From Novosphingobium fuchskuhlense (GTDB lineage: Bacteria > Pseudomonadota > Alphaproteobacteria > Sphingomonadales > Sphingomonadaceae), in NCBI RefSeq assembly GCF_001519075.1, contig NZ_KQ954244.1, forward strand, positions 1-64,000: 64,000 nt of DNA, in the 5' to 3' direction. Every line of letters begins with the position of its first letter. Position 1 is the first letter of the stretch. Made by a program: the position numbers and the translations under genes. This document shows positions 9,019-31,260 of the stretch, piece by piece. The notes below the pieces were generated by a model. That model saw only the letters and a program-made list of their open reading frames with translations, was not told where the DNA came from and did no database searches.

Positions 9019-9870
9019 TCATGGAGCCCATCTGACCTGACCGATTTCCGGCCGACGATAGCCGAGCGCGATGAGCACGGCACCGCCTGCGATCATCGGC
9101 ACACAGAGCCATTGGCCCATATGGAGACCGGTCACCTGCGCGAATGCGATTAGCTGCTGATCGGGTTCGCGAATGAATTCGACGAGGAACCGCAAGACGC
9201 CGTAGCCAAGCACGAAACTGCCGGTCAGCACACCCGGACGCCTTCTGGCGCTGCCCAAGTGATAGAGCGCAAACAGAAGCAAAAACAGCAGTGGCCCTTC
9301 CAAAACGGCTTCATAGAGCTGGCTTGGGTGCCGCGGCAGCGGGCCTGCATTCGGAAAGATGATGCCCCAAGGAAGAGTGGTGGGACGCCCCCACAACTCG
9401 CCGTTTATGAAATTGGCAATTCGCCCGAGCATAAGGCCGAACGGAGTGCACATCGCGACATAGTCGAGAACGCGAAGCCAGTTCAGGTTGCGACGCCGGC
9501 AGAAAAGGAACGTTGCAAAGGCAACGCCAAGTACGCCGCCATGAAATGACATACCGCCCAGCCACAAGGCAAAGATGCGGAGCGGCTGCGCGACGTAAGC
9601 CGCAGGCTCGTAGAACAGCACATACACAATGCGCCCACCTGCTATGATGCCGATCGTCGACCACGCGATAAGATCGTCCGCGTCGCTTCGAGTCAGTGGA
9701 GCATCAGCGTCCCGGGTCAGATGGACCAGATAGAGCCAGCCAAGCGCGACGCCGGCAAGGTAGGCCAGACTATACCAGCGCAGCGCGAAAGGCCCCAGAT
9801 GCAGCAGGACCGGATCGAGGCCGAGAGAGGAAAACGCTATGCCGTGTTGTGCGTCTTGCGCGAGACCCAT
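9019..9870 (-). CDS. lgt: Prolipoprotein diacylglyceryl transferase
   Basis: A 283-residue inner-membrane enzyme that transfers diacylglycerol from phosphatidylglycerol to the lipobox cysteine of prolipoproteins. The family signature GRIANFINGELWGRP is present, followed by HPSQLYEA and FIREPDQQL, along with several hydrophobic segments and GGMSFHGGVLG. The length is normal for Lgt. A chromosomal copy is expected elsewhere, so this looks like a cargo copy. It diverges from the ClC gene. The island's RND adaptor carries a lipobox, which gives a possible client, but that link is inference. Confidence 0.93.
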   Translation of the reverse strand: MGLAQDAQHGIAFSSLGLDPVLLHLGPFALRWYSLAYLAGVALGWLYLVHLTRDADAPLTRSDADDLIAWSTIGIIAGGRIVYVLFYEPAAYVAQPLRIFALWLGGMSFHGGVLGVAFATFLFCRRRNLNWLRVLDYVAMCTPFGLMLGRIANFINGELWGRPTTLPWGIIFPNAGPLPRHPSQLYEAVLEGPLLFLLLFALYHLGSARRRPGVLTGSFVLGYGVLRFLVEFIREPDQQLIAFAQVTGLHMGQWLCVPMIAGGAVLIALGYRRPEIGQVRWAP

Positions 9871-9960
9871 AACGACGCCTTGGGTTATGGACGGGATCGG
9901 TGGCCAGACCCTGTTGCCAATTAACTCCCAACCTAGCCTGAACCAGCGGCGCAGCCAGTG

Positions 9961-11733
9961 ATGCCACGATCCATGATGCAGATTTCATCTACATCCGGTT
10001 TTCGCCTTTCGAATGCGATCCCGCTCTTGCGGCGCATGTTTCGGGTCAGCGAGGTCAGCTTCATCCTGCTGGCGACCTGCGTTGGCGTTGCGGCCGGTCT
10101 GGTCGCCTCGCTGCTTGGCAAATTCGCCCGAGCCTTGCAGGTCGTGATCTATGGGCTCGACAGCCATGCACGGCTCAGCAGTGTCACCGAAATTGCCCCA
10201 GTGAGGCTGCTAGCCTTGCCGCTTGGCGGGCTGATGCTGGGGCTTAGCGCGCTTTATATTCATCGGCGGCGGGCCGCGATCGACGTGGTTGAAGCCAATG
10301 CCCTTCACGGTGGCCGCATTCCGATGCTGGACACCTTGCTGATATCAGCACAGACGCTGCTGTCCAACGGCTGCGGTGCTTCGGTGGGGCTGGAGGCCGC
10401 CTATGCCCAGTCTGGCGGCGGCATCGCCTCGTGGTTCGGGCAGGCCTTGCGGATACGCCGCGCTGACTTGCGTGTGCTCGTAGGGGCTGGCGCCGGCGCA
10501 GCCATCGCGGCGGCCTTCGGTGCTCCGCTGGCCGGGGCCTTCTACGCGTTCGAGATCGTGATTGGCGCGTACACCCCGGCTAGCATCGCCCCGGTTGCAG
10601 CCGCGACGATTTCTGCGGTCATTACCGCCCGCACGCTGGGGGCGACACCCTATCTCATTGCGGTAAGCAGCAGTCGTTCGATCATAACAGCTGACTACCT
10701 GCTCTATGCCGGTTTCGGGCTGGTCGCCGCAATTGTCGGCATTTTGATCATGCGTTTGGTCTCGGTCGTGGAAGCCTGGGTCCGGTATTCCGGGCTTCCC
10801 GAGTGGTCGAGGCCAGCACTTGGCGGGATGCTGCTTATACCGATTGCCTGGGTAACCCCGCATGCCCTTTCAGCCGGGCATGGCGCCATTCACCTGACAA
10901 TCGATGCGGGACTGGCGCTGCGCGCGCTCGTCCTGATATTTACGATGAAGGCCTTGGCTTCGGTCATATCCCTTGGCTTTGGCTTTCGCGGTGGCCTGTT
11001 CTTTGCTTCGCTGTTCCTCGGGGCGCTGCTGGGGCAGATTCTGGCGACCCTGTGGATGATGATCCCTGGTGTCATACCGATCACCTACACCGACGCAGCA
11101 CTGGTCGGCATGGCTGCCCTTGCCGTTGCAGTTGTCGGCGGCCCCATGACCATGTCATTGCTGGTACTCGAGGCCACACACGATTTCGAGATCACCGCAA
11201 CGGTTCTGACTGCCGCGCTCTGTTCGAGCGCCCTTGTGCGGGACCGCTTTGGCTATTCATTCTCGACATGGCGCTTGCACTTGCGCGGCGAAGTGATCCG
11301 CAGTGCCCGTGATATCGGGTGGATGCGGTCTTGGACGGCCCAGAGGATGATGCGCGCTGCACCGCCATCTGCGGCAGCAAACCTCCCCGTCGAGGACTTC
11401 CGACGCCAGTTTCCGCTCGGTTCCACAAGTCGAGTGCTCCTGATCGACGAGGCCGGGCACTATGCCGGCATGGTTCCGACCGCTGCGGCTTTCGCTCCAA
11501 CATTGGCAAATGAGAGTCCCGTTGCCGACCTGGCGATCCTTAAATCCGCATTCCTTGGTCCCGAAGACGGCATCGGCGAAATCATGCGACGCTTTGAGGA
11601 AAGCGAAGCGGACGATCTGGCCGTGGTATCGCCCTCCGGCGCGGTGCTCGGGATCTTGACCGAGAAGTATGTGCAGCGTCGCTATGCCGATGAAGCGGAC
11701 CGCGCGCTCCGCCAACTTTATGGCGAAGGCTAG
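9961..11733 (+). CDS. ClC-family chloride channel/transporter with CBS-like C-terminus
   Basis: 590 residues with the ClC membrane domain. Recognisable ClC elements are HGGRIPM (selectivity motif 1, here GGRIP rather than GSGIP), SVGLEAAYAQ carrying the gating-glutamate position, and GFRGGLFFASLFLGA (third motif). The last 130 residues look like a CBS-pair region (VLLIDEAGHYAGMVP and AVVSPSGAVLGILTEKY). ATG 9961 is used; another ATG at 9973 is possible. These proteins move chloride or other halides, often coupled to protons. The replaced serine of motif 1 means anion preference may differ. It converges on the TauE-like gene. Confidence 0.88.
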   Translation: MPRSMMQISSTSGFRLSNAIPLLRRMFRVSEVSFILLATCVGVAAGLVASLLGKFARALQVVIYGLDSHARLSSVTEIAPVRLLALPLGGLMLGLSALYIHRRRAAIDVVEANALHGGRIPMLDTLLISAQTLLSNGCGASVGLEAAYAQSGGGIASWFGQALRIRRADLRVLVGAGAGAAIAAAFGAPLAGAFYAFEIVIGAYTPASIAPVAAATISAVITARTLGATPYLIAVSSSRSIITADYLLYAGFGLVAAIVGILIMRLVSVVEAWVRYSGLPEWSRPALGGMLLIPIAWVTPHALSAGHGAIHLTIDAGLALRALVLIFTMKALASVISLGFGFRGGLFFASLFLGALLGQILATLWMMIPGVIPITYTDAALVGMAALAVAVVGGPMTMSLLVLEATHDFEITATVLTAALCSSALVRDRFGYSFSTWRLHLRGEVIRSARDIGWMRSWTAQRMMRAAPPSAAANLPVEDFRRQFPLGSTSRVLLIDEAGHYAGMVPTAAAFAPTLANESPVADLAILKSAFLGPEDGIGEIMRRFEESEADDLAVVSPSGAVLGILTEKYVQRRYADEADRALRQLYGEG

Positions 11734-11750
11734 AAAGTACCGTCCACCCC

Positions 11751-12533
11751 CTACATGGTCGACCAACTTTTCCAGAGCATATAGAGCGCGACACAAAAGA
11801 TCAGCACGGCGAAAACCGTGTTCAACAACCCCTTGTGCGCGGACAGACGGCGGGAGGCGGCAACGCCTACGAGACCGCCGAGAACACCGCCACCAATGAA
11901 GACCGCGGCCAGTCCCCAATCGATCAGACCGGAGAAGGCGTAGTTGAGCGCCGTCGTCAGTCCGAATGCGGCGACTGCGACGAGAGAGGACCCAACCGCG
12001 TTGATCATCGGCATGCCGGTTGATGCCATTAGGCCTGGCACAATCAAGAAACCGCCCCCGATCCCGAAAAATCCTGAAAACAGGCCGGTGGCGCTGCCAT
12101 AGGCGATCACTTTGGGGGCATTTTCCCGCTTGCATTCGACGTTGGGGTTCCCCGCCTGTCCGCGATTGCGAAGCATCAGCGCGCCCACCACCAGCATCAG
12201 CAAGGCGAACAGAAACAGCAGCCGCTGGCCATCGAATGCCTTGCCCATGCTCGATCCGAGAAAGGCACCGGCCACCCCGGCAAGTGCATACATACCTGCA
12301 CAGCGCCATTTGACCGTACCCTGCCGCGCATGTGGCACAAGGTTTGCCGCTGCATTCGCGGAGACCGCCAGTGCGCTGGTGCCAATCGCGACATGCGGAG
12401 AAGCGACGCCCACGAGGTAGACCATCAGCGGAACCGCGAGGATCGAGCCGCCCCCGCCGACCAGCCCGAGCGTGAAGCCCACAAGCGAGCCCGACGCGCC
12501 GCCGAGCAGATACTGAATGGGCTCAAGCACCAT
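11751..12533 (-). CDS. TauE/SafE-family sulfite/anion exporter
   Basis: A 260-residue membrane protein with the TauE/SafE internal repeat: a glycine-rich GFTLGLVGGGGSILAVP near the N-terminus and its counterpart GLFSGFFGIGGGFLIVPG in the second half. Members export sulfite, sulfoacetate or other sulfur anions. It is the last gene of the minus-strand operon led by the sulfide:quinone reductase and directly follows the persulfide dioxygenase-like gene, whose product would be sulfite. That order makes sulfite export the most likely job. Confidence 0.88.
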   Translation of the reverse strand: MVLEPIQYLLGGASGSLVGFTLGLVGGGGSILAVPLMVYLVGVASPHVAIGTSALAVSANAAANLVPHARQGTVKWRCAGMYALAGVAGAFLGSSMGKAFDGQRLLFLFALLMLVVGALMLRNRGQAGNPNVECKRENAPKVIAYGSATGLFSGFFGIGGGFLIVPGLMASTGMPMINAVGSSLVAVAAFGLTTALNYAFSGLIDWGLAAVFIGGGVLGGLVGVAASRRLSAHKGLLNTVFAVLIFCVALYMLWKSWSTM

Positions 12534-12550: not shown

Positions 12551-13468
12551 CTACAGGCTGTTCAGCGGGAGTTTGAGATAGCGCGTGCCGTTGTCCTCGG
12601 GTTCGGGTAGGTGGCCGCCGCGCATATTAATCTGGATCGAGGGCAGGATCAGGCGCGGCATCCCTAGCGTTGCGTCACGCGCTTCGCGCATCGCCGCGAA
12701 GGCATCCTCGGTGATCCCCGGATGGATGTGAACGTTGTCCCGGCGCTCCTGACCGATAGTCGTTTCCCAGACGAACCGATCCCGGCCCGGAGCCTTGTAG
12801 TCATGGCACAGGAACACCCGGGTCTGGTCAGGCAGTGCCAGCAGCCGGTAGATCGAGCGGTAAAGGGTCCGCGCATCGCCACCGGGAAAATCGACGCGTG
12901 CCGTGCCGTAGTCAGGCATGAACAGCGTATCGCCGATGAAGGCCGTGTCTCCGATGACATAGGCCATGTCTGCGGGCGTGTGCCCAGGGACATGGAGCGC
13001 GATGGCATCGAGCGAGCCGAGCCGAAAGCGTTCGCCGTCCTCCAGCAAATGGTCAAACTGCGAGCCGTCCCGGGCAAAGGCCGGCCCTTCATTGAAGATT
13101 TTGCCGAACACCGACTGGACCGTCAGGATATCGCGCCCGATCGCCAGCGTGCCGCCAAGGTGCTCTTGCAGATAGGGAGCCGCCGAAAGGTGATCGGCAT
13201 GCACATGGGTCTCGAGGTGCATTTCGACCGTCAGCCCTGCCGCCTCGACATAGGCGATCACCTGATCCGCGCAGTCGGTCGACGTGCGCCCCGATGCCGG
13301 ATCGAAGTCCAGCACGCTGTCGATGATTGCGGCCTTGCCAGTTGCGGGATCACTGGCAATGTGGGTGGCGGTGAACGTCGCCTCGTCGAACACAGTATGC
13401 ACTCGCACGCCGCTGGGCGCGGCTGCTTCCACAATGCCGCATGCAGCTTTGAGCGCCCGGTCGGTCAT
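12551..13468 (-). CDS. MBL-fold persulfide dioxygenase (ETHE1/Blh type)
   Basis: A 305-residue metallo-beta-lactamase-fold protein with the metal site HVHADHLSA, then VPGHTPADM, FIGDTLFMPDYGTARVDFPGG and FLCHDYKAPG. The DYGTARVDFPGGDA stretch is characteristic of the ETHE1/Blh persulfide dioxygenase branch, which oxidises glutathione persulfide to sulfite and GSH with one Fe(II). ATG 13468 is chosen because it overlaps the upstream methyltransferase stop by 4 nt (ATGA). It is translated with SQR, rhodanese and TauE-like neighbours, the usual sulfide-detoxification partners. Confidence 0.92.
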   Translation of the reverse strand: MTDRALKAACGIVEAAAPSGVRVHTVFDEATFTATHIASDPATGKAAIIDSVLDFDPASGRTSTDCADQVIAYVEAAGLTVEMHLETHVHADHLSAAPYLQEHLGGTLAIGRDILTVQSVFGKIFNEGPAFARDGSQFDHLLEDGERFRLGSLDAIALHVPGHTPADMAYVIGDTAFIGDTLFMPDYGTARVDFPGGDARTLYRSIYRLLALPDQTRVFLCHDYKAPGRDRFVWETTIGQERRDNVHIHPGITEDAFAAMREARDATLGMPRLILPSIQINMRGGHLPEPEDNGTRYLKLPLNSL

Positions 13469-14313
13469 GCTGCTGCCCGCACCAACCATGCCTTGGCCGG
13501 CACTGCCATGCCCTCCGGCGTTTCGAACTGCTGGAAGAACGCGGTGACCTTGGCGCGGATCGTTTCTTCAAGACCGGGCTCAGCACCCTCCAGCACATTG
13601 GCGAACGAAAAAGCGCGGAGCGAGAATTCGGCAGCCTTGGCAGCGTCGCTGCCCGAGCCGCCAACCGGGATTGCGCCATGCCACGCGGCAATGTCTATTT
13701 GCGAAAAACCGGCCTTGTGCAGCAGGCTTCCAGTAGCATCCGGATCGGCCAGCCTGAACGGTCCCGGGGCCATCGGATCGGCCGTCGGCAGTTCAATGTG
13801 CTCAGCGACAATCGCGCGTGCGCCGCTCATCCAGACATTGTCTTGCGGCGAAGCCCAGACCATGAAATCTGCTCGCCCTCCCTCGACCAGCAGCGTCCGC
13901 AAATGCGTGAAGGCAGCCTCGGGATCGGCGAAGAACATCACGCCAAGCCGCGAGATCAGCCTGTCGAACGGCGCGCCTTCGGGCACGAAGGATGCTGCAT
14001 CGCCCGTGCTGAAGCGCACATTGCCAATCCCTGCTGCCTCGGCGCGGCGGGTCGCTTCGTCCATCAGCATTGGGGCGATGTCGATCCCGTGCACGCTGCC
14101 GCTGGGGGCGACCAGATGAGCAGCCAGACGCGAGGTCCGGCCCCCGCCGCACCCGATGTCAGCAATGTGCTGCCCGTTTTGCAGCGCGGCGCGGTCCAGC
14201 AGTGCGATGCCGAGCGGCTCCAGCATCTGTTCATAGGAATCGAGCTCGGCAAGCCAGAGCGCGCCGCGCGCGTCGGCCCAATCTTCACCGCTCGTGCCTT
14301 GGGAATTGGACAT
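13465..14313 (-). CDS. Class I SAM-dependent methyltransferase
   Basis: 282 residues with the SAM-binding motif IADIGCGGGRTSRLAA, followed by GSVHGIDIAPML and VRFSTGDAASF, a Rossmann-fold methyltransferase of the UbiE/Methyltransf_11 type. ATG 14313 has a GGAG site and is preferred over an upstream TTG. The substrate is unknown. Its place inside the sulfide operon invites the idea of thiol or sulfide S-methylation, but nothing in the sequence proves it. Confidence 0.82.
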   Translation of the reverse strand: MSNSQGTSGEDWADARGALWLAELDSYEQMLEPLGIALLDRAALQNGQHIADIGCGGGRTSRLAAHLVAPSGSVHGIDIAPMLMDEATRRAEAAGIGNVRFSTGDAASFVPEGAPFDRLISRLGVMFFADPEAAFTHLRTLLVEGGRADFMVWASPQDNVWMSGARAIVAEHIELPTADPMAPGPFRLADPDATGSLLHKAGFSQIDIAAWHGAIPVGGSGSDAAKAAEFSLRAFSFANVLEGAEPGLEETIRAKVTAFFQQFETPEGMAVPAKAWLVRAAA

Positions 14314-14335
14314 ATTGTTCTCCAAAATTGATCGC

Positions 14336-14704
14336 TCAGGCCTTGGGCTCAGGAGCCGGTATCTTGGCCGCGAACTGGTCGTAAGCTTCGATGGCCTGCG
14401 CGGCGTACATCAAGCTTGGTCCTGCGCCCATGTACAGCGCCATGCCCATAACCTCCATGATCTCCTCGCGGGTTGCACCCTGTCTGACGGCGGCCTCGCT
14501 GTGAAAGGCGACGCAGCCGTCGCAGCGGATCGCCACGGAAATGGCTAGCGCGATCAGCTCCTTGGTCTTGACGTCGATCACACCGGGCGCTGTCGCAGCG
14601 CGCGCCATGGCCGAAAACGCTTTGGTGACTTCGGGGCTGCCAAGGCGCATTTCCTTGATTGCGCCGGTGAGCTGCTCGGCCATTTCCGGCCAGTCCTTGT
14701 GCAT
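14336..14704 (-). CDS. Carboxymuconolactone decarboxylase/AhpD-family protein
   Basis: 122 residues with the AhpD-type redox signature RCDGCVAFHSEAA (CxxC followed by His) and the helical EEIMEVMGMALYMGAGP segment. Proteins with this CxxC work as alkylhydroperoxidase-like thiol redox enzymes rather than lactone decarboxylases. ATG 14704 is used because a GAGG site lies 9 nt before it; the upstream in-frame ATG at 14713 directly abuts that site. It sits between the TolC-like and methyltransferase genes of the sulfide operon. Confidence 0.85.
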   Translation of the reverse strand: MHKDWPEMAEQLTGAIKEMRLGSPEVTKAFSAMARAATAPGVIDVKTKELIALAISVAIRCDGCVAFHSEAAVRQGATREEIMEVMGMALYMGAGPSLMYAAQAIEAYDQFAAKIPAPEPKA

Positions 14705-14723
14705 CGCGGTCATCCTCTATGCG

Positions 14724-15998
14724 TCAGAATTTGCGGCCGAGCAGGCTGAGCAGCCGGTAGGCAGCCACGATCCGGTCGGTGCCCGCCCTCGCGGCACCGG
14801 CCTCGGCGGACGTCGCCTCGCGCTCCGCATCGAGCAGATCGAGCTGCGGCTTCATGCCGACGCGGACTTCCTGCCTGACGCTGTCGAGCGCTTTGGCAGC
14901 AGCAGCGGTCTGTTCGCCCGCTGCCTGTTCCACGAGCTGGGCTGTCCGCACATCCTGGAACGCGGCAATGACCTGTTCCTCAATCTGCAGCCGCGCCGCG
15001 CGTAGCCGCGCATCGGCGGCCAGAACAGTACTGTCCGCTTCGGCAACTTTGCCCGAGACCCGGCCACCGCTGAAAATCTGCCAGCGGGCGCGTATACCAA
15101 CAGTGGCGCTGTCGCCGCGATAGCCTGGGAAGAACTGGTCGCGCACGGTCGATGCCTCGGCGAAAGCACCTACCGTAGGCATCCGTTCCGCGCGCGCGCC
15201 ACGCGCCGCCGCCTGCGCACCGCGGAGGCCAGCCTCGGCCTGGGCGAGCATCGGATTGGCCTGTATCGCTGCGTCCATCGCCTCGTCGAGCGAAGCCGGG
15301 AGCGGGGGATTGGCAGGAAGCGGCTTGAGATCGGCGGGTTCGAGCCCGGTCAGATTGCGGAACCGCGCCTGCGCCGAAACCTGCATGCCTTGCGCGCGGG
15401 CCAGCCCAGCACGCGCTTCGGCGAGCCGCGCATCAGCCTGCGCAACATCGGTACTGGGGCTCTCGCCCGCACGGAACTTGAGCTGCGCCTGGCGCCCGAT
15501 CTCGGTGGTCTGCGATACGAGCCGGCCATAGAGATCGACGAAATGCGCGGCGGTCAGCACATCGCCGTAGGCTTGCGTCACTGCCAGAACCAGCTGGCTG
15601 CGGGTGCCGGTCTTCCCCGCCTCCGCCGCCGCCATGCCGGCGCGCGCGCGGTCGATCCCCGCACCGACCCGCCCGCCGGTAAACAGCGGCTGCTCGATCG
15701 CCATCTGCGCCGCGCGAGGGGTCACATCGGCTCTACCAAGTCCGAAGAATCCGCCCGGATCGAGGCGGCCATAGCCGATCGTGCCGCTCAGCGTTGCGGT
15801 GGGCATATGCTCGGCCGTGGCCTGATCTACCCGTGCCGAAGCCGCATCGGCATCAGCGTCGGCTGCCGAGACTTCCGGCGCATGCGCCAGCGCGGCCGCC
15901 AACGCGTCCTCGAGCGTGGTTCCATGTGCCGTGCCGCCGAGCACCAGCGGCGCGGCGAGCCACAGCGCGAGCTGGAAAGTGCGGCGCAGGATAGTCAT
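14724..15998 (-). CDS. TolC-family outer-membrane efflux channel
   Basis: 424 residues with a signal peptide (LRRTFQLALWLAAPLVLGG) and two alanine-rich outer-membrane-efflux-protein repeats, visible in the paired GRVGAGIDRARAGMAAAEAGK and GRVSGKVAEADSTVLAADA type segments. It would form the outer-membrane and periplasmic channel for the RND pump encoded divergently at 18.0-22.3 kb. Its start overlaps the DUF2892 stop by 4 nt. Finding the channel in the SQR transcript and its pump in the opposite transcript suggests joint control from the shared promoter region. Confidence 0.9.
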   Translation of the reverse strand: MTILRRTFQLALWLAAPLVLGGTAHGTTLEDALAAALAHAPEVSAADADADAASARVDQATAEHMPTATLSGTIGYGRLDPGGFFGLGRADVTPRAAQMAIEQPLFTGGRVGAGIDRARAGMAAAEAGKTGTRSQLVLAVTQAYGDVLTAAHFVDLYGRLVSQTTEIGRQAQLKFRAGESPSTDVAQADARLAEARAGLARAQGMQVSAQARFRNLTGLEPADLKPLPANPPLPASLDEAMDAAIQANPMLAQAEAGLRGAQAAARGARAERMPTVGAFAEASTVRDQFFPGYRGDSATVGIRARWQIFSGGRVSGKVAEADSTVLAADARLRAARLQIEEQVIAAFQDVRTAQLVEQAAGEQTAAAAKALDSVRQEVRVGMKPQLDLLDAEREATSAEAGAARAGTDRIVAAYRLLSLLGRKF

Positions 15999-16198
15999 TT
16001 GAACGCTGTGCCCGGACGCACGCCCATGGCCTTAAATGCGATCGCGGCAGGACAGAATCCAGTGAACCCGGCCTGGATCATGTTGAGCCCGGCAAAGGCC
16101 GACAGGCCGATCCACCAGGGATGGACGGCAAGCGACAGGGCAATTCCGAGCAGCACGACAAAGCCAGCAAAAATCATCACAGCACGATCAAGAGTCAT
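15995..16198 (-). CDS. DUF2892 small membrane protein (YgaP-like membrane domain)
   Basis: 67 residues with two hydrophobic segments (AVMIFAGFVVLLGIALSLA and WWIGLSAFAGLNMIQAGFTGF) and the FTGFCPA motif usual in DUF2892 proteins. The same domain is fused to rhodanese in E. coli YgaP and appears as a free protein in many BigR/SQR operons. An AAAGGA site precedes ATG 16198. Its function is not established; it is sulfur-operon associated, and the single cysteine in FCPA could bind a sulfur species. Confidence 0.85.
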   Translation of the reverse strand: MTLDRAVMIFAGFVVLLGIALSLAVHPWWIGLSAFAGLNMIQAGFTGFCPAAIAFKAMGVRPGTAFK

Positions 16199-17524: not shown

Positions 17525-17580
17525 CACGCCTGTTCCTCTCACCTCGATATCTTGCTTGACTGAATATGATGATTACACGA

Positions 17581-23521: not shown

Positions 23522-24670
23522 TCAGTAGAAATCGGGGTTGGTGCGGACATCCTGCAGCGTCACGCGGCCGAACATGACCTTGTAGGCCCAGGCCGTGTAG
23601 AGCAGCACGATCGGCAGGAAGAGCAGCGTCACCAGCAGCATGTTGAACAGCGTCATATGGCTAGAGGACGCATTCCACACCGTGAGGCTGGACGCGGGAT
23701 CGATCGAGCTGGGCAGGATGAAGGGAAACATGGAGAGACCGACCGTGGCGATGATCCCGGTCGCCGCGGCCGACGATCCGCCGAAGGCCAGCGCCTCACG
23801 CCGCGCACGAATGCCCACGAGCGCGATGATTGGCCCGACAAAGCCGAGCAGCGGAGCCAGCAGCATCAAAGGATGCGCGCTGAAGTTGTCGAGCCACGCG
23901 CCCGGTGCTGCGATCATCGCCGCCATATGCGGATTGGACGGGCCCGCAGGATCGACGGCGCCTTGCATGCGGAAGCCGTACCCCATCGTGGCCATCATCA
24001 CACCACCTGCGGCAAACAGAACAATCGACAGCACCGCCGCAATCTGGCCGAAGCGCTTGGCCCGGTCATGGACCGCGCCGTGCTCGATCTTGAGCGCAAG
24101 CCATGCGGAGCCGTGGAGCACCAGCATGGTGACAGACAGCAGCCCAGCGAGCAGCGAGAACGGATGGAACAGGCCGAGCAGCGTGCCTTCGTAGAACGAG
24201 CGCAGATCGCTATCGAGGCGGAAGGGAATGCCTGCCAGCACATTGCCGACCGCGACGCCGAACACCAGCGCGGGCACGAACCCGCCCACGAACAGCGCCC
24301 AGTCCCAGCGGCTCCGCCATGCCGGATCGGGCCGCTTGGAGCGATATTTGAAGCCGACCGGCCGCAGGATCAACGCCGCCAGCACAAGGAACATGGCCAG
24401 ATAGAAGCCCGAGAAGCTGACCGCATAGACAAACGGCCAGGCCGCAAAGATCGCGCCGCCGCCAAGGATGAACCAAACCTGGTTGCCCTCCCAGGTCGCG
24501 CCGACCGCGTTGATCACCATGCGCCGCTCTTCATCGGTCTTGCCAACGAACGGCAGCAGCGCTGCCACGCCAAGATCGAACCCGTCGGTGAGCGCAAAGC
24601 CGATGAGCAGCACGCCCATCAGGAGCCACCAGATGACGCGCAAGGTTTCGTAGTCGATCGGGGGAACCAT
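23522..24670 (-). CDS. cydB: Cytochrome bd ubiquinol oxidase subunit II
   Basis: 382 residues with eight or nine hydrophobic segments. It has the typical N-terminus (RVIWWLLMGVLLIGFALTDGFDLGV), NAVGATWEGNQVWFILGGGAIFAAWP and an HGSAWLALK segment. CydB pairs with CydA in the quinol oxidase that reduces oxygen to water at high affinity and resists sulfide, cyanide and NO. It lies 11 nt downstream of cydA. Confidence 0.97.
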   Translation of the reverse strand: MVPPIDYETLRVIWWLLMGVLLIGFALTDGFDLGVAALLPFVGKTDEERRMVINAVGATWEGNQVWFILGGGAIFAAWPFVYAVSFSGFYLAMFLVLAALILRPVGFKYRSKRPDPAWRSRWDWALFVGGFVPALVFGVAVGNVLAGIPFRLDSDLRSFYEGTLLGLFHPFSLLAGLLSVTMLVLHGSAWLALKIEHGAVHDRAKRFGQIAAVLSIVLFAAGGVMMATMGYGFRMQGAVDPAGPSNPHMAAMIAAPGAWLDNFSAHPLMLLAPLLGFVGPIIALVGIRARREALAFGGSSAAATGIIATVGLSMFPFILPSSIDPASSLTVWNASSSHMTLFNMLLVTLLFLPIVLLYTAWAYKVMFGRVTLQDVRTNPDFY

Positions 24671-24681: not shown

Positions 24682-26289
24682 TTATTCAGCAGGCAGCGCG
24701 GCGTAGCCCTGAAAGCGGGCCTCGCCTTGCGCCGGATAAGCAGGTTGGTGCGGCACGTGATCTTCGATCGGACCGTGCGCAATGGCGGCCAGCATCAGCC
24801 GAACCTCGATCACGGCCAGCGTGCCGTAAAGCGCGGTGAAACCGATGATCGTGGTCCAGATCTGCGGGATCGTAAGGCTTGAAGCGCCGAGGAATGTCGG
24901 CAGCACGCCGTCGATCGCCCAAGGCTGACGTCCGATTTCGGCGAGTATCCAGCCACCTTCGATGGCGAGCCAAGGCAAGGGAATGATCCAGACGGCCGCG
25001 CGCATGAACAGGCGGCAGAAGCCGTTGGCGCAGCCGAAGCGGCGGATCGAGGCCATGTAGAACGCGGCACCAAAGAAGGCGATGAAGAAGAAGCCGAGCC
25101 CGGCCATGCCGCGGAACAGCCAGAACATCACCGGCACGTTGGGCACCGTGGTCCAGGCCGCCTTCTGGATATCGGCGGGCGTAGCGGCGCGCGGATCAGC
25201 CATGAAGCGCTTGAGCAGCATGGCATAGCCGAGATCGAGCTTGTGTTCCTCGAACTGGGCGCGCGCGGCCAGATCGGTGCGATTGACCTTGAGCTTCTCG
25301 ACCGCATCATAGGCTTTGATCCCGCTTTCGATGCGGGTTTCAGCCTTGACCACCAGTTCATCGATCCCGGCGACCTGCCCGGTCAGGCTACGGGTGGAAA
25401 TCAGGCCCAGAACATAGGGCACCTTGATCTCGTAGCGCGTCTCGCGGCCTTCCATGCTGGGAATGCCGAACAGTGTGATCCCAGCAGGGGCCGGCTCGGT
25501 GTGCCACATTGCCTCCAGCGAGGCGAGTTTCATCTTCTGGTTATCTGTAAGCGTATAGCCCGACTCATCGCCCAATACGACCACCGACAAGGACGACGCG
25601 AGACCGAACGCGGCTGCAACGGTGAACGAACGCTTTGCGACCGCGACCCATTTCCCGCGCAAGATGTACCACGAGGAGACACCGAGCACGAACACCGAAG
25701 CGCAGACATACCCGGCACTCACCGTATGGACGAACTTGGCCTGCGCCACCGGATTGAAGATAACGGCGGCAAAATCGGTGACTTCCATGCGCATGGTATC
25801 GGGATTGAAGCGCGAGCCGGTCGGGTGCTGCATCCAGCCATTGGCGATGAGAATCCACAAAGCGGACAAGTTGGAACCGAGCGCGACCATGAAAGTCGTG
25901 AACAAATGCTGGCGCTTGCTGAGTTTGTCCCACCCAAAGAACATCATGCCGACAAACGTCGCCTCGAGGAAGAAGGCCATGAGGCCCTCGATCGCCAGTG
26001 GCGCGCCGAAGATATCGCCTACATAATGCGAAAAATACGCCCAGTTTGTCCCGAACTCGAATTCCATGGTGATGCCGGTGGCGACACCCAGCACGAAATT
26101 GATCGCGAAGAGCTTTGCCCAGAAGCGCGTGACCACCCGCCAGATCGGCCGGTCGGTCATCACGTAGATGCTCTCCATGATGACCAGCATGAAGGAGAGC
26201 CCGAGCGTCAGCGGCACGAACAGGAAATGGTACAGCGCGGTGAGGGCAAATTGCAGTCGCGAAAGCTCGATGACGGCCATATCCACCAT
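24682..26289 (-). CDS. cydA: Cytochrome bd ubiquinol oxidase subunit I
   Basis: 535 residues carrying the haem ligands. His21 in ALTALYHFLFVPLTLG matches E. coli His19, and FVHTVSAGYVCASVF supplies the haem b558 His. FFLEATFVGMMFFGWDKL holds the conserved glutamates. The Q-loop region is present at about residues 250-390. ATG 26289 follows a CAGGAGTG ribosome site. It leads cydABX and diverges from cydDC over a 118-nt promoter region. Within this island it would re-oxidise the quinol produced by SQR under conditions where cytochrome c oxidase is poisoned. Confidence 0.97.
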   Translation of the reverse strand: MVDMAVIELSRLQFALTALYHFLFVPLTLGLSFMLVIMESIYVMTDRPIWRVVTRFWAKLFAINFVLGVATGITMEFEFGTNWAYFSHYVGDIFGAPLAIEGLMAFFLEATFVGMMFFGWDKLSKRQHLFTTFMVALGSNLSALWILIANGWMQHPTGSRFNPDTMRMEVTDFAAVIFNPVAQAKFVHTVSAGYVCASVFVLGVSSWYILRGKWVAVAKRSFTVAAAFGLASSLSVVVLGDESGYTLTDNQKMKLASLEAMWHTEPAPAGITLFGIPSMEGRETRYEIKVPYVLGLISTRSLTGQVAGIDELVVKAETRIESGIKAYDAVEKLKVNRTDLAARAQFEEHKLDLGYAMLLKRFMADPRAATPADIQKAAWTTVPNVPVMFWLFRGMAGLGFFFIAFFGAAFYMASIRRFGCANGFCRLFMRAAVWIIPLPWLAIEGGWILAEIGRQPWAIDGVLPTFLGASSLTIPQIWTTIIGFTALYGTLAVIEVRLMLAAIAHGPIEDHVPHQPAYPAQGEARFQGYAALPAE

Positions 26290-26407
26290 GGGTGGTCACT
26301 CCTGTTTATCGGTCTGGCCGCACGACTCATGGTGCGGCGTCCGGAATTGATTAGCCATTAGCCGTAAGTGTGTATATGATCAAGTCCAGATCGCTACGGA
26401 TACCATT

Positions 26408-27982
26408 TTGCCCACTCGTGCATTCCTGTTCTGGCTACTCGACGGCCTGCTTGCAATTGCGCTTGCGGCGGCGCTGGCGGTTGCAGTCTCGTTGCTGGCC
26501 GAGCGCGTCGCCGGCGCCGAACTGCTGCTCGCCTTGACACTTCTGTGCACCGCCGGCCTCGCCCGCGCCGGAGCACAAGTGCTTGCTGCAGGTGCCGGAC
26601 AGCACGAGGCGGCACGCGCGAAGCAAGCCTGGCGGGTGCGCGCCTTCGGCGCCGTGCTGCGCGCGCCCGCAGGCCTTCGCGTCATGCTCGGTGAACAGAC
26701 TGCGGACGCGACCGACCGCATCGAAGACCTCGACGGATATCATGCCCGGTTCCAGCCGCTGCGGCTGGCGGCGGTGGCAACCCCGCTGATGGTGGCGGCG
26801 GCTGCCGCGACGGCAAGCTGGGTCGCCGCCGCGATCATGCTGGCCACGCTGGTGCCGTTTGCATTCGGCATGGCCTTCGCCGGCACCGCCGCCGCCCGTG
26901 CTGCGGCACGGCAACTCGATGCGCTGAGCAAGCTCTCGGGCCTGTTCATCGACCGCGTGCGCGCTTTGCCGATCATCCTCGGCTTCGGGGCGCAGGACCG
27001 CGTGGTCCGGCAATTGGGGGCCGCCACACAGGATGTCGCCCAGCGCACACTGGTGGTGCTGCGCGTCGCGTTCCTGTCGAGCGCGGTGATGGAATTCTTC
27101 GCCGCCATCTCGGTGGCGCTGGTCGCGGTCTATTGCGGCTTCAGTCTGTTGGGGCTCCTGCCGTTCCGCGCGCCCGAAACCCTGACACTTGGGCGCGCGC
27201 TGTTCGTCCTCGTGCTCGCGCCCGAGTTCTACTTGCCGATGCGGCGTATGGCCGCCGCATACCACGACAAGCAGATCGGCGAGGCTGCGCTGGAGCGGCT
27301 CACACGGCTCGCGCCGACAGATGGCGCAACGGCAGCGAGTTCAGCCGATCTGACTGCGCCCCCGGGCATGGATATACGCGATCTTGTCATTGCTTACGAA
27401 GACAAGCTGATCGGGCCGTTCGCCTTCATTGCGCCCGCAGGTGAGCTGACCGTGATTTCCGGGCCATCAGGGGCGGGCAAGTCCAGCTTGCTCAACGCCC
27501 TGCTCGGCCTTGCGCCGATATCTTCAGGCGAGATCCTCCTCGATGGCGCACCGCTGGTGGCCACACAGCTTCAAGGTGCGGTCAGCTGGACGGGTCAGAT
27601 GACCCTGTTTCTGCCCGGCACACTTGCGGACAATATCCGCCTGGCGCGTCCGGACGCTTCCGACGAGGACATCGCCGCTGCCGCCGCCAGCGCAGGCTTG
27701 ACCGCCCTGATCGCAGGCCGCCCTGCAGGCCTCCAAACGCCCATCGATCCCCGCGGATCGGGGCTCTCGGGCGGCGAGCGCAGGCGCATCGGCATTGCCC
27801 GTGCCCTGCTGCGCGATGCGCCTTTGTGGCTGCTCGATGAACCCACCGCCGATCTCGATGCCGCATCGGCGGACGCGCTTATCGCGCTGATCCGCTCTGC
27901 ATCGCAGGGCCGCACCGTACTGCTTGTCACGCACGATCCGGCGGTAGCAGCACTTGCCGACCATCACGTGGTGATCGCATGA
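26408..27982 (+). CDS. cydD: CydD, thiol-exporting ABC half-transporter for cytochrome bd assembly
   Basis: 524 residues: a six-helix ABC exporter domain (1-320), then a nucleotide-binding domain with Walker A GPSGAGKSSLLNALLG, signature LSGGERRRIGIARALL, and LLDEPTADLD. CydDC exports cysteine and glutathione to the periplasm and is needed for bd haem insertion. The start is a TTG at 26408 with no better ATG nearby, so the exact start is uncertain. The stop overlaps cydC by 4 nt. Thiol export also fits the persulfide theme of the island. Confidence 0.92.
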   Translation: MPTRAFLFWLLDGLLAIALAAALAVAVSLLAERVAGAELLLALTLLCTAGLARAGAQVLAAGAGQHEAARAKQAWRVRAFGAVLRAPAGLRVMLGEQTADATDRIEDLDGYHARFQPLRLAAVATPLMVAAAAATASWVAAAIMLATLVPFAFGMAFAGTAAARAAARQLDALSKLSGLFIDRVRALPIILGFGAQDRVVRQLGAATQDVAQRTLVVLRVAFLSSAVMEFFAAISVALVAVYCGFSLLGLLPFRAPETLTLGRALFVLVLAPEFYLPMRRMAAAYHDKQIGEAALERLTRLAPTDGATAASSADLTAPPGMDIRDLVIAYEDKLIGPFAFIAPAGELTVISGPSGAGKSSLLNALLGLAPISSGEILLDGAPLVATQLQGAVSWTGQMTLFLPGTLADNIRLARPDASDEDIAAAAASAGLTALIAGRPAGLQTPIDPRGSGLSGGERRRIGIARALLRDAPLWLLDEPTADLDAASADALIALIRSASQGRTVLLVTHDPAVAALADHHVVIA

Positions 27983-29574
27983 CGCGCCCCCAGCTCGACA
28001 CCATGCTGGAGCAAGCAACCCGGCCCTATCGATCCGCTACATGGCTTGCGATCGCCTGCGCTGCGGGTGCAGTGATTACCGGGATCGCATTGCTGGGCCT
28101 TGCCGGATGGTTCATCACGGGCGCGGCGCTGGCGGGTGCCGCCGGGATAGTGGCCGTGCAGGCGTTTAACTATCTGCTGCCCAGCGCCGCAATCCGACTG
28201 CTGGCGATCACCCGCACGGTCACGCGCTACGGCGAGCGATTCTATGGCCACAAGGCCGCGCTCTCGGCACTTGCCGATTTTCGCGTGGCGCTGTTCGAAA
28301 GGCTGGTCTCGGCGCCCGGGACGGCCGCGCCGCGCGGCGCGGGCGATCTCGCCGCACTGCTCATTCAGGATGTTGATGCGCTTGAGGACCGGTTCGTGCG
28401 CCAGCCTGGCCAGATCGCGGCGCTTGTCGGCGCAGCCACGGCGCTGGCATTCGCGATTCCGGCAGGCTGGGCGGCCACCGCTGCCTTGGCCGCGATTATC
28501 CTTGCCGTGGTGATCGCAGCGCGGCTTCTGGCTAGACGCTGGCTCCCTGAAAAGGCGCAAGCCATTCAGCAGGATATCGCCGCGCTCAAACTGGTTTTCG
28601 TCGAATATGCCGCCGCTTCGCCCGAGATCGCGGCCTATGCGCTGGCCGCGCCAGTCGAGGCGCAATTACAGCATCAGGCGGCGCAGCTCGACACCCGGCG
28701 CACCGCGTTTGCTCAAGCTGAAGCCATGCTGGCGGCTCTCGTTACGGCCGCGGGCGGGCTGGCGATGGCGGCGATACTCGGCCTGTCGGAGGCCTCACTG
28801 CCGCTGACCCTGCTGGCCGCGCTGGCGGCCGCCGGCGCGGTAGAAGGTCTGTCGGCGGCCGTGCGCTCAAGCGGGCGTGACGCGGTGATCGCTGCCGGGC
28901 TTGCCCGCCTTGCCGTGCTGATCGGCACTGCCCCGGTGCCAAGCGCTCCGGCTGCACATTTGGCCGGTGATCAGATCACGATCACGCAGAGCGGCCAAAC
29001 GCTGGTCCTGAAGCGTGGGGACCGACTTGTTGTGACCGGCCCCTCGGGCTGCGGCAAGACGAGCCTGCTCGAAACACTCGCAGGCGCGCGCGATGCAGCC
29101 AGCAACGTGATGATCGACGGCGACTTCATCGGAGCAATCCCTGCGGATCAGCGCCGCGCGCTCTTCGCGGTCTCGCCCCAGAGCGCGCAGATGATCGCAG
29201 GCACGATTGCCGACAATCTGGGCCTCGCGCGGCCTGGGCTTACCGCAGACGATATGTGGTGCGCGCTTGAAACTGCGTGCTTCGCCGACGCAGTCCGCGC
29301 CATGCCCGAGGGTCTGGGCACATGGGTCGGCGATGGCGGGACTCGCCTTTCAGGCGGCGAGCGCAAGCGGCTTTCGCTAGCCCGCGCGCTGCTGGCAGGT
29401 CGCCCCTGGCTCCTGCTGGACGAGCCCAGCGAGGGCCTCGATCCGCACACCGAGTGCAAGGTGCAGGTGAACCTTGATGGCTGGCTGGCGGAGACCGGGA
29501 CGGGCCTCATTCTGGTGACGCACCGCGATGCGATGTTGCCGCTCGGCAAGCAGCACCTTGCAATGGGCAGCTAG
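27979..29574 (+). CDS. cydC: CydC, partner ABC half-transporter
   Basis: 531 residues with an ABC exporter membrane domain (ALLGLAGWFITGAALAG, FNYLLPSAAIRLLAITRTVTRYGER), Walker A GPSGCGKTSLLETLAG, signature LSGGERKRLSLARALL and LLDEPSEGLDPHT. It forms the heterodimer with CydD, to which it is coupled by an ATGA overlap. Its stop codon overlaps the convergent ArsR gene by 4 nt, so both transcripts must read through each other's 3' ends. Confidence 0.94.
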   Translation: MTRPQLDTMLEQATRPYRSATWLAIACAAGAVITGIALLGLAGWFITGAALAGAAGIVAVQAFNYLLPSAAIRLLAITRTVTRYGERFYGHKAALSALADFRVALFERLVSAPGTAAPRGAGDLAALLIQDVDALEDRFVRQPGQIAALVGAATALAFAIPAGWAATAALAAIILAVVIAARLLARRWLPEKAQAIQQDIAALKLVFVEYAAASPEIAAYALAAPVEAQLQHQAAQLDTRRTAFAQAEAMLAALVTAAGGLAMAAILGLSEASLPLTLLAALAAAGAVEGLSAAVRSSGRDAVIAAGLARLAVLIGTAPVPSAPAAHLAGDQITITQSGQTLVLKRGDRLVVTGPSGCGKTSLLETLAGARDAASNVMIDGDFIGAIPADQRRALFAVSPQSAQMIAGTIADNLGLARPGLTADDMWCALETACFADAVRAMPEGLGTWVGDGGTRLSGGERKRLSLARALLAGRPWLLLDEPSEGLDPHTECKVQVNLDGWLAETGTGLILVTHRDAMLPLGKQHLAMGS

Positions 29575-29948
29575 AGCATCTTCGCAAACATCGCGGCAGA
29601 CCCGCGCGCTGGAGGCTCCATGCGTTCGAGCTTTGCAAGTCTGCCAGCCCCATCGGATGGTGCGAGCGCGGCAAGGAAGCGCGCCGCTGGTGCAAACGCT
29701 TGTGGCGAAACACTGTAGTAGACTTGCTTTGCTGCGCGGCGAGTCTGCACTAACTCGGCCTTCCGCAAGATCGCCAGCTGCTGCGAGAGGCCTGGCTGAC
29801 CGATGCCGGTCAAACCCTCGATCTCGCTGACAGATTTCTCGCCGTGTTCAAGCAGCGTGGCGATCAGCCGCAGCCGCGTGTCATGGCCAAGCGTGCGCAT
29901 GACCTCGGCGAGCGCCTCGATATCAGGATCCATTTGCGGATCTTGCAT
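29571..29948 (-). CDS. ArsR-family transcriptional regulator
   Basis: 125 residues. The winged helix is evident: VMRTLGHDTRLRLIATLLEHG, IEGLTGIGQPGLSQQLAIL, AELVQTRRAAKQVYYSV. There are no cysteines, so unlike the BigR-type protein at 22,255 it cannot sense thiols through its own cysteine pair. It lies 3 nt downstream of the peroxiredoxin gene and probably controls that promoter through the palindrome at 30,658. Confidence 0.87.
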   Translation of the reverse strand: MQDPQMDPDIEALAEVMRTLGHDTRLRLIATLLEHGEKSVSEIEGLTGIGQPGLSQQLAILRKAELVQTRRAAKQVYYSVSPQAFAPAARFLAALAPSDGAGRLAKLERMEPPARGSAAMFAKML

Positions 29949-29951: not shown

Positions 29952-30635
29952 TTACCCTTTCGCCGGTTGCGGCCTGAGGCGGCAGAACCACGTCGGATCG
30001 TCTGCCTCTGCAAGCAACGCAGCCTGATCCTGATCGGGCGGGATAAGGACCGCATCGCCGGGCTTCCAGCCCTCAGGTGTCACGACATCTTCGCCATCGA
30101 CGGCCTGCAAGGCTGCAAGCACCCGCAGCATCTCGTCAACCGAACGGCCGACCGTGGCGGGATAGCAGGTCATGGCACGAACAAATCCGGCTGGGTCGAT
30201 GAAATAGGTTGAACGCATGGCCGCTGCATCCGCTGCGTGTTCGGCGACCATGCCGTAGGCGCGCCCAATGATCAGCGATGTATCCTCAACGATCGGGAAA
30301 TTGATCGTCACCCCGAAACCGTCGCGGATCGCGCGAACCCAGGCCAAGTGCGAGTAAAGGCTGTCGACCGAGACGGCGAGGAGCGCACATTGGAGCGCCT
30401 CAAACCGGCTGCTTGCCTTTGCCAGTGCGATAAACTCGCTGGTGCACACCGGCGTGAAATCTGCCGGATGCGAAAACAGAACCAGCCAGCGCCCGCGAAA
30501 GTCCGCGAGTGACATTGGCCCCATGGTCGTCCGTGCCTGGAAATTGGGAGCCGGATCGCCGATGTGGAGCGACCTTGGATCGTTAGCCATCTGGGCCAGG
30601 TTGTCAGCCATTTCGCGAGATTCCGTGTCGTCCAT
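29952..30635 (-). CDS. Peroxiredoxin, Prx6-like
   Basis: 227 residues of the AhpC/TSA fold with the peroxidatic site HPADFTPVCTSEF (Cys64) and the C-terminal extension typical of the Prx6 group (VVTPEGWKPGDAVLIPP, WFCRLRPQP). One further cysteine near the C-terminus (WFC) could be a resolving residue. It reduces peroxides, and several Prx enzymes also react with persulfides. It is divergent from trxC, a natural electron donor, across a short regulatory gap. Confidence 0.92.
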   Translation of the reverse strand: MDDTESREMADNLAQMANDPRSLHIGDPAPNFQARTTMGPMSLADFRGRWLVLFSHPADFTPVCTSEFIALAKASSRFEALQCALLAVSVDSLYSHLAWVRAIRDGFGVTINFPIVEDTSLIIGRAYGMVAEHAADAAAMRSTYFIDPAGFVRAMTCYPATVGRSVDEMLRVLAALQAVDGEDVVTPEGWKPGDAVLIPPDQDQAALLAEADDPTWFCRLRPQPAKG

Positions 30636-30657
30636 CTTGGCAAAATTCCATACACGA

Positions 30658-30674
30658 TTACATTACAAATGTAA
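30658..30674. promoter_or_regulatory. Palindromic operator candidate upstream of the peroxiredoxin gene
   Basis: Perfect 7-bp inverted repeat TTACATT-ACA-AATGTAA located 22 bp from the peroxiredoxin start, in the gap shared with the divergent trxC. ArsR-family operators often have this form. The ArsR gene downstream of the peroxiredoxin is the obvious candidate binder, inferred from proximity. Confidence 0.55.
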
Positions 30675-30804
30675 GCCAGAAATTGTTGGGAAGGCTGATG
30701 CCGATGCTGGCAGGTGTTCCCTCGAGATGCTCCGGCGATCACGCTAAGACCCGCGCCAATCAATAGCGGAACGCGAAAAGAGGCGTAAATTCAAGGACAC
30801 AGTC

Positions 30805-31260
30805 ATGAATGCAGCCATGATCGATCCCGCCATCATTCTCTGCCCATCGTGCGCAACGGCAAACCGAGTGCCGTCAACCCGGCTCGAGCAGCACCCGGAA
30901 TGTGGTCGCTGCGGCAAGATGCTTTTCCAAGGCGCGCCTATTGCCGTAAGTGGTGTGACGTTCAATCGCCACGTCAAGACCGGTACGCTACCCGTGCTGG
31001 CCGATTTCTGGGCAAGCTGGTGCGGCCCCTGCAAGGCAATGGCCCCTGCCTTTGCTGCTTCGGCCGGGACACTCGAGCCGAAGGTGCGGTTGCTCAAGAT
31101 CGACACGGAAGCCGAGCAGGCAGCTGCGGCGCAATTCGCCATCAGGTCGATCCCCACCCTGATCCTGTTTGTCGGGGGCCGGGAGATAGCACGCAGTGCC
31201 GGGGCCTTGGATCAACGCGCGATTGTCGCATGGACCCAGCAGCACCTGACAGGAAAATGA
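30805..31260 (+). CDS. trxC: Thioredoxin 2 (zinc-finger thioredoxin)
   Basis: 151 residues. An N-terminal zinc ribbon (CPSC at 13-16 and CGRC at 33-36) precedes a thioredoxin domain with the canonical WCGPC (Cys73/Cys76) and the cis-proline SIPT. TrxC is a stress-induced cytosolic disulfide reductase that can reduce peroxiredoxins and persulfides. ATG 30805 has an AAGGA site. It is the last cargo gene before the replication module. Confidence 0.95.
   Translation: MNAAMIDPAIILCPSCATANRVPSTRLEQHPECGRCGKMLFQGAPIAVSGVTFNRHVKTGTLPVLADFWASWCGPCKAMAPAFAASAGTLEPKVRLLKIDTEAEQAAAAQFAIRSIPTLILFVGGREIARSAGALDQRAIVAWTQQHLTGK

Follow-up and report, generated by a model that had tools for sequence, protein, structure and literature searches.

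A probable mobile island for sulfide and sulfane-sulfur detoxification and respiration, with an RND efflux pump, in Novosphingobium fuchskuhlense

The first 64 kb of contig C1 (NZ_KQ954244.1) of Novosphingobium fuchskuhlense, here called the window, hold a block of genes for sulfide oxidation, an RND efflux pump and cytochrome bd, and the question is whether these genes form one transferable system and what the pump does in it. The contig has 2.09 Mb and belongs to a draft genome of 3.97 Mb in 7 contigs. Judged by what was observed, i.e. gene content, gene order, conserved linkage, a conserved operator and occurrence on mobile elements, the package is real, recurrent and mobile, and its kind is already known from the BigR/SqrR-type sulfide clusters. 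We consider it probable that the block is a horizontally transferred BigR/SqrR-type island for sulfide and sulfane-sulfur detoxification and respiration.

Window genes were assigned to families using Pfam and NCBIfam models with their cut-offs, together with PDB matches for the sulfide:quinone oxidoreductase (SQR), the persulfide dioxygenase (PDO) and the ArsR repressor. All genes named in an earlier note on this DNA were recovered at 9-31.3 kb (Table 1), and the tripartite RND pump is, as that note said, divided between two divergent operons, both of which begin between SQR (reverse strand) and rhodanese (forward strand). The left, reverse-strand operon encodes SQR, a YgaP-like membrane protein, a TolC channel, an AhpD-like protein, a methyltransferase, PDO and TauE in overlapping or closely spaced genes. 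The right, forward-strand operon encodes rhodanese, adaptor, RND pump, ArsR repressor and a secreted protein, mostly in overlapping genes. The adaptor is probably a lipoprotein, having the sequence LASC which we take as a lipobox-like motif. A full cytochrome bd set follows (CydA, CydB, CydX, CydD and CydC, the last below its NCBIfam cut-off); a second cydA, 78% identical, is found on contig C2.

For the SQR Pfam gives Pyr_redox_2 and nothing more specific, and its identity rests on solved SQRs: residues 11-431 align with sulfide-quinone reductase entries of the PDB, presumably from A. ferrooxidans, giving full-length homology. The protein carries the motifs SVC, GASCYGPAYE and GVCVAIPP, whose three cysteines we assume to be the catalytic ones of the active site. 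A regular expression for the second motif matches 103 of 109 orthologues, and the third motif could be recognised in 64, with its cysteine in 60. SQR has a single match in its own genome, where four full-length RND pumps were found. The PDO has an MBL fold with the iron-ligand motifs THVHADH, GHT and GDTLF; THxHADH occurs in 44 and GDTLF in 38 of 46 orthologues. Against the NCBIfam Blh model it scores 375 bits (cut-off 625), as only the C-terminal dioxygenase part of that model is matched.

Recurrence was followed with the window's RND pump as bait in 296 genomes of Sphingomonadales, its own genome counted, at E-value thresholds of our choice. The pump was present in 31 genomes (E<=1e-280), SQR in 42 (E<=1e-120) and CydA in 25 (E<=1e-180). 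SQR lies within 25 kb of 30 of the 34 pump copies; conversely, the pump lies within 25 kb of 30 of the 44 SQR copies and of 11 of the 26 CydA copies. Of the 33 SQR copies of at least 68% identity, 30 are near a pump; one of the other three stands at a contig end. Fifteen genomes have both pump and CydA, which are 2.4-13.3 kb apart in 11, on different contigs in three and 905 kb apart in one. Fisher tests over the 296 genomes gave 2.9e-30 for pump and SQR and 9.0e-11 for pump and CydA, values which overstate independence because the genomes are related. The earlier note had been ready to abandon the package if its genes were scattered and never moved together; checked in these genomes, this did not refute it.

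Gene content was then counted around each pump. Loci from the order, and from a second sample drawn from the class, extend just 8.4 kb to either side of the pump, and contig ends truncate several of them; cyd is therefore undercounted in both samples. Loci on named contigs have 10-kb flanks. Hits were dropped below identities of 55% for CydA, CydB and SQR, 44% for PDO and 42% for CydC and CydD, no identity filter was applied to hits of ArsR, DUF2892, rhodanese and methyltransferase, which count wherever they fall within the locus, and some loci are the same genome twice (e.g. L093 and L143). The 33 other order loci have SQR in 29, DUF2892 in 28, a window-like ArsR in 26, rhodanese in 26, PDO in 13, CydA in 5 and any Cyd gene in 10. 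For the best 80 named loci the counts are 67 for SQR, 73 for DUF2892, 74 for ArsR, 57 for rhodanese, 30 for PDO and 13 for CydA, with SQR, PDO and CydA together in 6. In Novosphingobium sediminis the order is almost that of the window: cydXBA is there, but cydDC is missing from the interval between CydA and the second ArsR. A near-window order with no cyd in the stretch read was seen in Sphingomonas populi and S. formosensis. The class sample has the pump in 30 of 385 Alphaproteobacteria (E<=1e-200), and its 28 new loci have DUF2892 in 20, a window-like ArsR in 16, SQR in 7 and CydA in 1. Five loci of distant Alphaproteobacteria in which SQR was not detected (L181, L185, L194, L198, L205) are compact and combine adaptor, pump and DUF2892, three of them with a window-like ArsR.

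In the plasmid collection the pump occurs in 51 records (E<=1e-150; 40 of the 51 listed) and SQR in 19 (E<=1e-100). In 19 of these 19 SQR records, some of which are near-duplicates, the pump adjoins, with starts 2.1-4.7 kb apart. Three plasmids typed as F-type conjugative, pIBU218, pISP1 and pDB-2, carry pump, SQR and cydXBA-cydDC in an order very similar to that of the window, and pISP1 and pDB-2 have in addition the second ArsR, peroxiredoxin, TrxC, PDO and TauE. These plasmids differ from the window in having DUF3365, DUF2202 and TlpA genes between pump and cyd, whereas the element in the window has a tRNA-Ser attachment remnant. pISP1 (Sphingomonas) and pDB-2 (Sphingopyxis) have 21.4 kb in common at 99.8% identity, so that the whole block has moved, most likely with its plasmid. 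Pairwise identities of the pump correlate with those of SQR (Spearman 0.85, 110 loci, some near-duplicates) and of CydA (0.87, 20 loci, a few of which are near-duplicates). The proposal of a transferable package is thus borne out, since much of its gene set turns up again, partly in conserved order, in other genomes and on conjugative plasmids.

Around the package of pIBU218 we also noted katG, c-type cytochromes, a catalase and a Dps-type protein (L060, 6943-9652 and 20500-22842), a neighbourhood that recalls the raised katG transcript level of the E. coli ygaV mutant described below; the text of the pIBU218 paper makes no mention of cytochrome, sulfide, sulfur or efflux (PMC9195938). One of the 19 SQR records, NZ_AP026896.1 of Aeromonas caviae (4.9 Mb), is filed as a plasmid and is probably a chromosome; its RND and SQR genes are separated by about 3 kb, in a stretch for which the record lists no genes.

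The class and order counts thus make the pump the constant part and SQR its usual partner in close relatives, and within the order cyd is a frequent yet optional partner of the pump. The pump as an accidental neighbour was rejected on the linkage counts of the order, class and plasmid samples. The earlier note had listed it as an unexplained addition, which it is not: it is the most constant neighbour of this SQR (19/19 plasmid records, 30/34 pump copies). The same tight link makes it unlikely that we are dealing with a general multidrug or solvent pump for which sulfane sulfur is merely a stress signal, the sulfur genes co-travelling by chance of selection, and so do DUF2892 (20/28) and the window-like ArsR (16/28) beside the pump in distant Alphaproteobacteria. 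That explanation would agree with the closest solved pumps and the NCBIfam subfamily models, which are of multidrug RND type with all models below cut-off, and with reports that MarR-family regulators sense sulfane sulfur (PMC8614764, PMC11211675). Export of complexes of sulfide with metal ions, as has been proposed for the efflux pumps that Azospira suillum upregulates under H2S (PMC5358917), is very unlikely here: the CusA/CzcA model scores 267.9 bits as compared with 411.6 and 344.8 for two multidrug RND models (all below cut-off), and the family matches of the window include no recognised metal-binding partner.

The two divergent operons have a conserved promoter/operator region between them, and its pattern (TTGAC, an AT-rich imperfect palindrome, GCAA or ACAA) was seen in 58 of the 71 unique regions between SQR and rhodanese. 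The operator matrix gives 38.8 bits at the window operator, 6.7 at the next window site and a maximum of 14.0 in five shuffles. Scanned over 2.94 Mb of loci, a matrix built from 53 SQR-rhodanese sites returned 110 hits: 90 at SQR/rhodanese, training sites included and hence hits by construction, 9 at ArsR, DUF2892 or adaptor promoters, 5 before cydA (4 distinct; L076, L093/L143, L116, L131), 1 at peroxiredoxin and 5 elsewhere, whereas mononucleotide shuffles returned one hit in 1.26 Mb. In the relatives with a site before cydA, cyd therefore seems to be under the control of the same repressor. A search for simple FNR-type boxes ahead of cydA found none in the window and one among 22 other loci (L071), some of the upstream stretches being truncated. 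A motif found twice in the window, GTAANNGTGTAT, stands in the cydA-cydD promoter region and before the peroxiredoxin gene and was chosen after both copies had been noticed. TTAC-GTAA palindromes precede the peroxiredoxin gene in several other loci, and GTAANNGTGTA occurs in 8 of 207 loci, the window's own among the 8.

The repressor encoded beside the pump has its best matches within the BigR/SqrR/YgaV/HlyU group, and its top PDB matches are BigR, YgaV, the activator entry 5znx and the ArsR-family entries 13ct and 6o8l, which we take to be SqrR. Its Cys35 aligns with the first sensor cysteine, and Cys97 follows 62 residues further. Persulfide sensing by this protein is likely, as its closest solved relatives are BigR and YgaV, when these are weighed against its low BigR score and its cysteine spacing; the protein is called BigR-like and not BigR since it stays below the BigR cut-off.

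Sensing, induction, all fluxes, the pump substrate and the transfer of this copy are what we infer from these observations. SQR is known to pass electrons from sulfide to quinone, rhodanese and persulfide dioxygenase turn sulfane sulfur into sulfite, TauE-type proteins export sulfite, and cytochrome bd is sulfide-tolerant. The BigR/SqrR/YgaV-like ArsR would most likely repress one bidirectional promoter at the operator until its cysteines form persulfides, whereupon the left operon (SQR to TauE) and the right operon (rhodanese to secreted protein) would be released. SQR would then feed sulfide electrons to quinone and produce sulfane sulfur, which rhodanese and the dioxygenase would convert to sulfite for export by TauE, while the RND pump may clear a sulfur product accumulating beyond the inner membrane. 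Cytochrome bd, assembled with CydDC, would re-oxidise the quinol once sulfide poisons the haem-copper oxidases, and the second ArsR, peroxiredoxin and TrxC would serve in thiol and peroxide stress. The closed loop from sulfide through quinol to oxygen which the earlier note had drawn can likewise be inferred from the gene content. RND pumps capture their substrates in the periplasm or at the periplasmic face of the inner membrane, so that a sulfur product on the periplasmic side is the natural guess for the substrate. Tentatively, RND pump, adaptor and TolC channel might form a dedicated exporter that carries the product of this SQR, a polysulfide or organic persulfide that arises on, or arrives at, the periplasmic side, across the outer membrane.

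A quinol oxidase encoded alongside SQR, and a distance of less than 14 kb between cyd and pump in 11 of the 15 genomes having both, would also suit an island through which a heterotroph gains sulfide as an additional source of electrons (SQR, quinol, oxygen), detoxification being a by-product. We find this quite unlikely, given that PDO, TauE, pump and BigR-like repressor suit a stress response, that cytochrome bd conserves little energy, and that many relatives have the SQR-pump core without nearby cyd. Cyanide can act as a sulfur acceptor, and the rhodanese, SQR and cytochrome bd encoded here could in principle deal with it as a respiratory poison, the first two making thiocyanate and cytochrome bd bypassing poisoned oxidases; with PDO, TauE, the YgaP-type protein and the BigR-like repressor all indicating sulfide or persulfide, a cyanide-directed island is most improbable.

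The nearest known systems are those under BigR, SqrR or YgaV control (Rhodobacter capsulatus SqrR, E. coli ygaVP, A. baumannii yeeE-yedE-pdo2, and BigR-Blh of Xylella), which resemble the window in having a BigR-family ArsR, rhodanese, a YgaP-type domain, PDO and TauE in varied combinations. The window differs from them in bringing sqr, RND pump and cyd together in one cluster on an element of mobile type, in having rhodanese and membrane domain as separate genes, where E. coli YgaP is a fusion of the two, and in the spacing of its repressor cysteines, 62 and not 66 as in sHdrR and A. baumannii BigR. In the E. coli ygaV mutant, cydAB and katG transcripts are increased, and ygaP lies within the ygaV operon (PMC9774250); in A. 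baumannii, sulfide induces cydAB and a PDO-SQR-TauE operon (PMC7315123). The published regulation in these two organisms fits the gene clustering observed here. In A. baumannii cydAB is at a separate locus, unlike in the window (PMC7315123). The FisR/CstR-type operons of A. baumannii and S. aureus likewise unite SQR, PDO and TauE; they have other regulators, and the available text does not name an RND pump in the operon (PMC7315123). Closest on the pump side is Dsui_3440-3443 of Azospira suillum (unknown protein, efflux pump, SQR, RND adaptor), where SQR and an RND pump make one operon that is highly expressed under H2S-oxidising conditions and for which PDO, TauE, an ArsR repressor and cyd are not named in the text available (PMC5358917). 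RND pumps and TauE have also been reported beside SqrR/BigR-type regulators (PMC12423496). The earlier note's impression of an undescribed package thus holds in part: the SQR-RND operon and the BigR-RND neighbourhoods are published (PMC5358917, PMC12423496), and the mobile cyd-containing whole was not found in the literature searched. That search covered the open-licence literature, outside of which most subscription papers lie, and gave no mobile cyd-containing package, no constant SQR-pump pairing on plasmids and no operator shared with cydA in relatives.

Several results weigh against the reading of the block as one BigR/SqrR-type sulfide island. Deletion of the whole SQR-RND operon of A. 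suillum left perchlorate-coupled H2S oxidation unaltered (PMC5358917). Within the order 14 of the 44 SQR copies have no pump within 25 kb, 11 of them having at most 65% identity, and in the class sample SQR is not near 21 of 28 pumps (8.4-kb flanks). cydA is near a minority of pumps, i.e. 11/34 in the order (25 kb), 13/80 of the best named loci (10-kb flanks) and 1/28 in the class (8.4-kb flanks). Strict regular expressions for the first and third SQR cysteine motifs match just 71 and 60 of the 109 orthologues. By the matrix, the window's own cydA promoter has no SQR-type operator, and such an operator stands at just 5 (4 distinct) of 22 other cydA loci. One operator common to all parts of the island was therefore rejected, as the only strong window site is that of SQR-rhodanese. 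Finally, the BigR-like repressor scores 81.6 bits on the NCBIfam BigR equivalog model (cut-off 155), and its candidate cysteines 35 and 97 are spaced by 62 residues as compared with 66 in the known sensors sHdrR and A. baumannii BigR (PMC12423496, PMC7315123).

The sulfur and cyd block is flanked on both sides by plasmid-type backbone genes, with ArdC, ParB-like and strawberry-notch genes on the left and the ribbon-helix-helix, ParA and RepC-like genes on the right. The strawberry-notch gene matches 541 plasmid records at E<=1e-100, and the order strawberry-notch, ParB, zincin is also seen on a Novosphingobium plasmid. Between the ParB and strawberry-notch genes, positions 2975-3412 give a PemK/MazF-like match slightly under the Pfam cut-off. 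The earlier note had called the element tRNA-integrated, and a 3' tRNA-Ser fragment does mark its right end; a whole tRNA within the window was rejected, since ARAGORN and Rfam (gathering) find none there, and the intact tRNA-Ser(GCU) is at C3:82223-82315 on contig C3 with a tyrosine integrase directly after it. The 3' part of a tRNA that has an integrase beside it is thus present twice, with the two copies on separate contigs. The 82 kb from the tRNA to the end of C3 carry F-type transfer genes (TraD-type coupling protein, TraG, TraH, TraN, TraU) and a TrwC relaxase gene; at the integrase end (C3:56000-80000), further open reading frames resemble transport or catabolic genes by eye. A single integrated conjugative element of about 116 kb (82 + 34), split by an assembly gap, is likely, although it is reconstructed and not contiguous because the contig ends C1:1 and C3:1 have no overlap and no empty attachment site was identified in the 8 relatives read around the tRNA match. 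The sequence upstream of the tRNA was matched by blastn in 8 of these 8 relatives, and HU and the other genes 3' of the right end were not found within about 10 kb of their tRNA.

Table 1. Features of the window, with positions counted from its first nucleotide
Feature	Position	Strand	Evidence or remark
ArdC-type antirestriction gene, cut by contig start	1-600 (approximate)	-	ArdcN 7.7e-36, reverse frame of 1-735
ParB-like protein	735-2801	-	ParB_N, HTH_ParB
Strawberry-notch methylase/helicase	3792-8030	-	AAA_34, Helicase_C_4
Lgt	9019-9870	-	PF01790 1.1e-77; local addition
ClC-type chloride channel, weak CBS match	9958-11733	+	PF00654
TauE, putative sulfite exporter	11751-12533	-	PF01925 8.8e-51
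Persulfide dioxygenase-like MBL protein	12551-13489	-	PF00753; PDB MBL relatives, e.g. 4ysk 1.7e-112
Class I SAM methyltransferase	13465-14325	-	Pfam
Carboxymuconolactone decarboxylase (CMD)/AhpD-like	14336-14713	-	PF02627 7.9e-24
TolC-type outer membrane channel (OEP)	14724-15998	-	PF02321 3e-59
YgaP-like_TM (DUF2892) transmembrane protein	15995-16198	-	PF11127 7e-11
Sulfide:quinone oxidoreductase	16244-17542	-	PDB sulfide-quinone reductase entries 1.4e-139
Conserved promoter/operator of divergent operons	17556-17589	+	TTGAC, AT-rich imperfect palindrome, GCAA
Single-domain rhodanese	17637-17975	+	PF00581 5.6e-13
RND periplasmic adaptor	17979-19040	+	Pfam, NCBIfam
RND efflux pump	19037-22258	+	PF00873 2.2e-150
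BigR/SqrR/YgaV-like ArsR repressor, Cys12/35/51/97	22255-22596	+	Best PDB match BigR 4.6e-17
Secreted-looking protein	22593-23360	+	Without Pfam match
CydX	23395-23502	-	PF08173 1.4e-12
CydB	23522-24670	-	PF02322 1.8e-101
CydA	24682-26289	-	PF01654 4.6e-166
GTAANNGTGTAT motif, cydA-cydD promoter region	26364-26375	+	2 in window, 0.00 expected
CydD	26408-27982	+	Pfam ABC transporter; TIGR02857 467.5 bits, cut-off 435
CydC-like	27979-29574	+	Pfam ABC transporter; TIGR02868 257.5 bits, below cut-off 329.05
Second ArsR repressor, without cysteine	29571-29948	-	Pfam
Peroxiredoxin	29952-30635	-	PF00578 4e-32, 1-cysPrx_C
GTAANNGTGTAT second copy, before peroxiredoxin gene (peroxiredoxin-TrxC region)	30650-30661	-	As 26364-26375
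TrxC-type thioredoxin 2 with zinc ribbon	30805-31260	+	PF00085, Zn_ribbon_Thio2
Ribbon-helix-helix protein, backbone	31344-31766	-	PF20605
ParA, backbone	31636-32283	-	Pfam
RepC-like replication initiator, backbone	32280-33602	-	RP-C 2.2e-19
Right attachment-site remnant, 3' tRNA-Ser part, element end	33927-33990	+	94% over 64 bp to C3:82223-82286

Among the remaining genes, a ClC gene is near the cluster in 4 of the 147 compared loci (L060, L065, L072, L114), methyltransferase-like hits occur in 3 of the 33 order loci and 6 of the best 80 named loci, and Lgt was found in none of the 147, of which 61 reach only 8.4 kb and so fall short of the distance of Lgt in the window. The AhpD-like and methyltransferase genes adjoin, and both products match, below cut-off, the NCBIfam model of a fused arsenite methyltransferase-AhpD selenoprotein. 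The secreted-looking protein has CGCP and GGLWDAA invariant in four aligned sequences, and its family is present on 6 plasmid records, 3 of them package plasmids. Its predicted structure is all-beta (mean pLDDT 76.5) and probably consists of two Ig-like domains; a fold search with the model gave only unspecific beta-domain matches.

RND pumps have mostly been studied as drug pumps. Here a lineage of them accompanies SQR and a BigR-like repressor, both on plasmids and on chromosomes in Alphaproteobacteria, which suggests that its natural substrate is a form of reactive sulfur. If the tentative export proposal is true, SQR and pump would be a functional couple, and a known pump superfamily would have a new inorganic or sulfane-sulfur substrate, packaged for transfer with a sulfide-tolerant oxidase. 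With the operator conserved, the regulon can be tested directly. These loci also show that a strain can inherit sulfide oxidation along with a terminal oxidase that tolerates sulfide, which could explain a gain of sulfide tolerance in one step.

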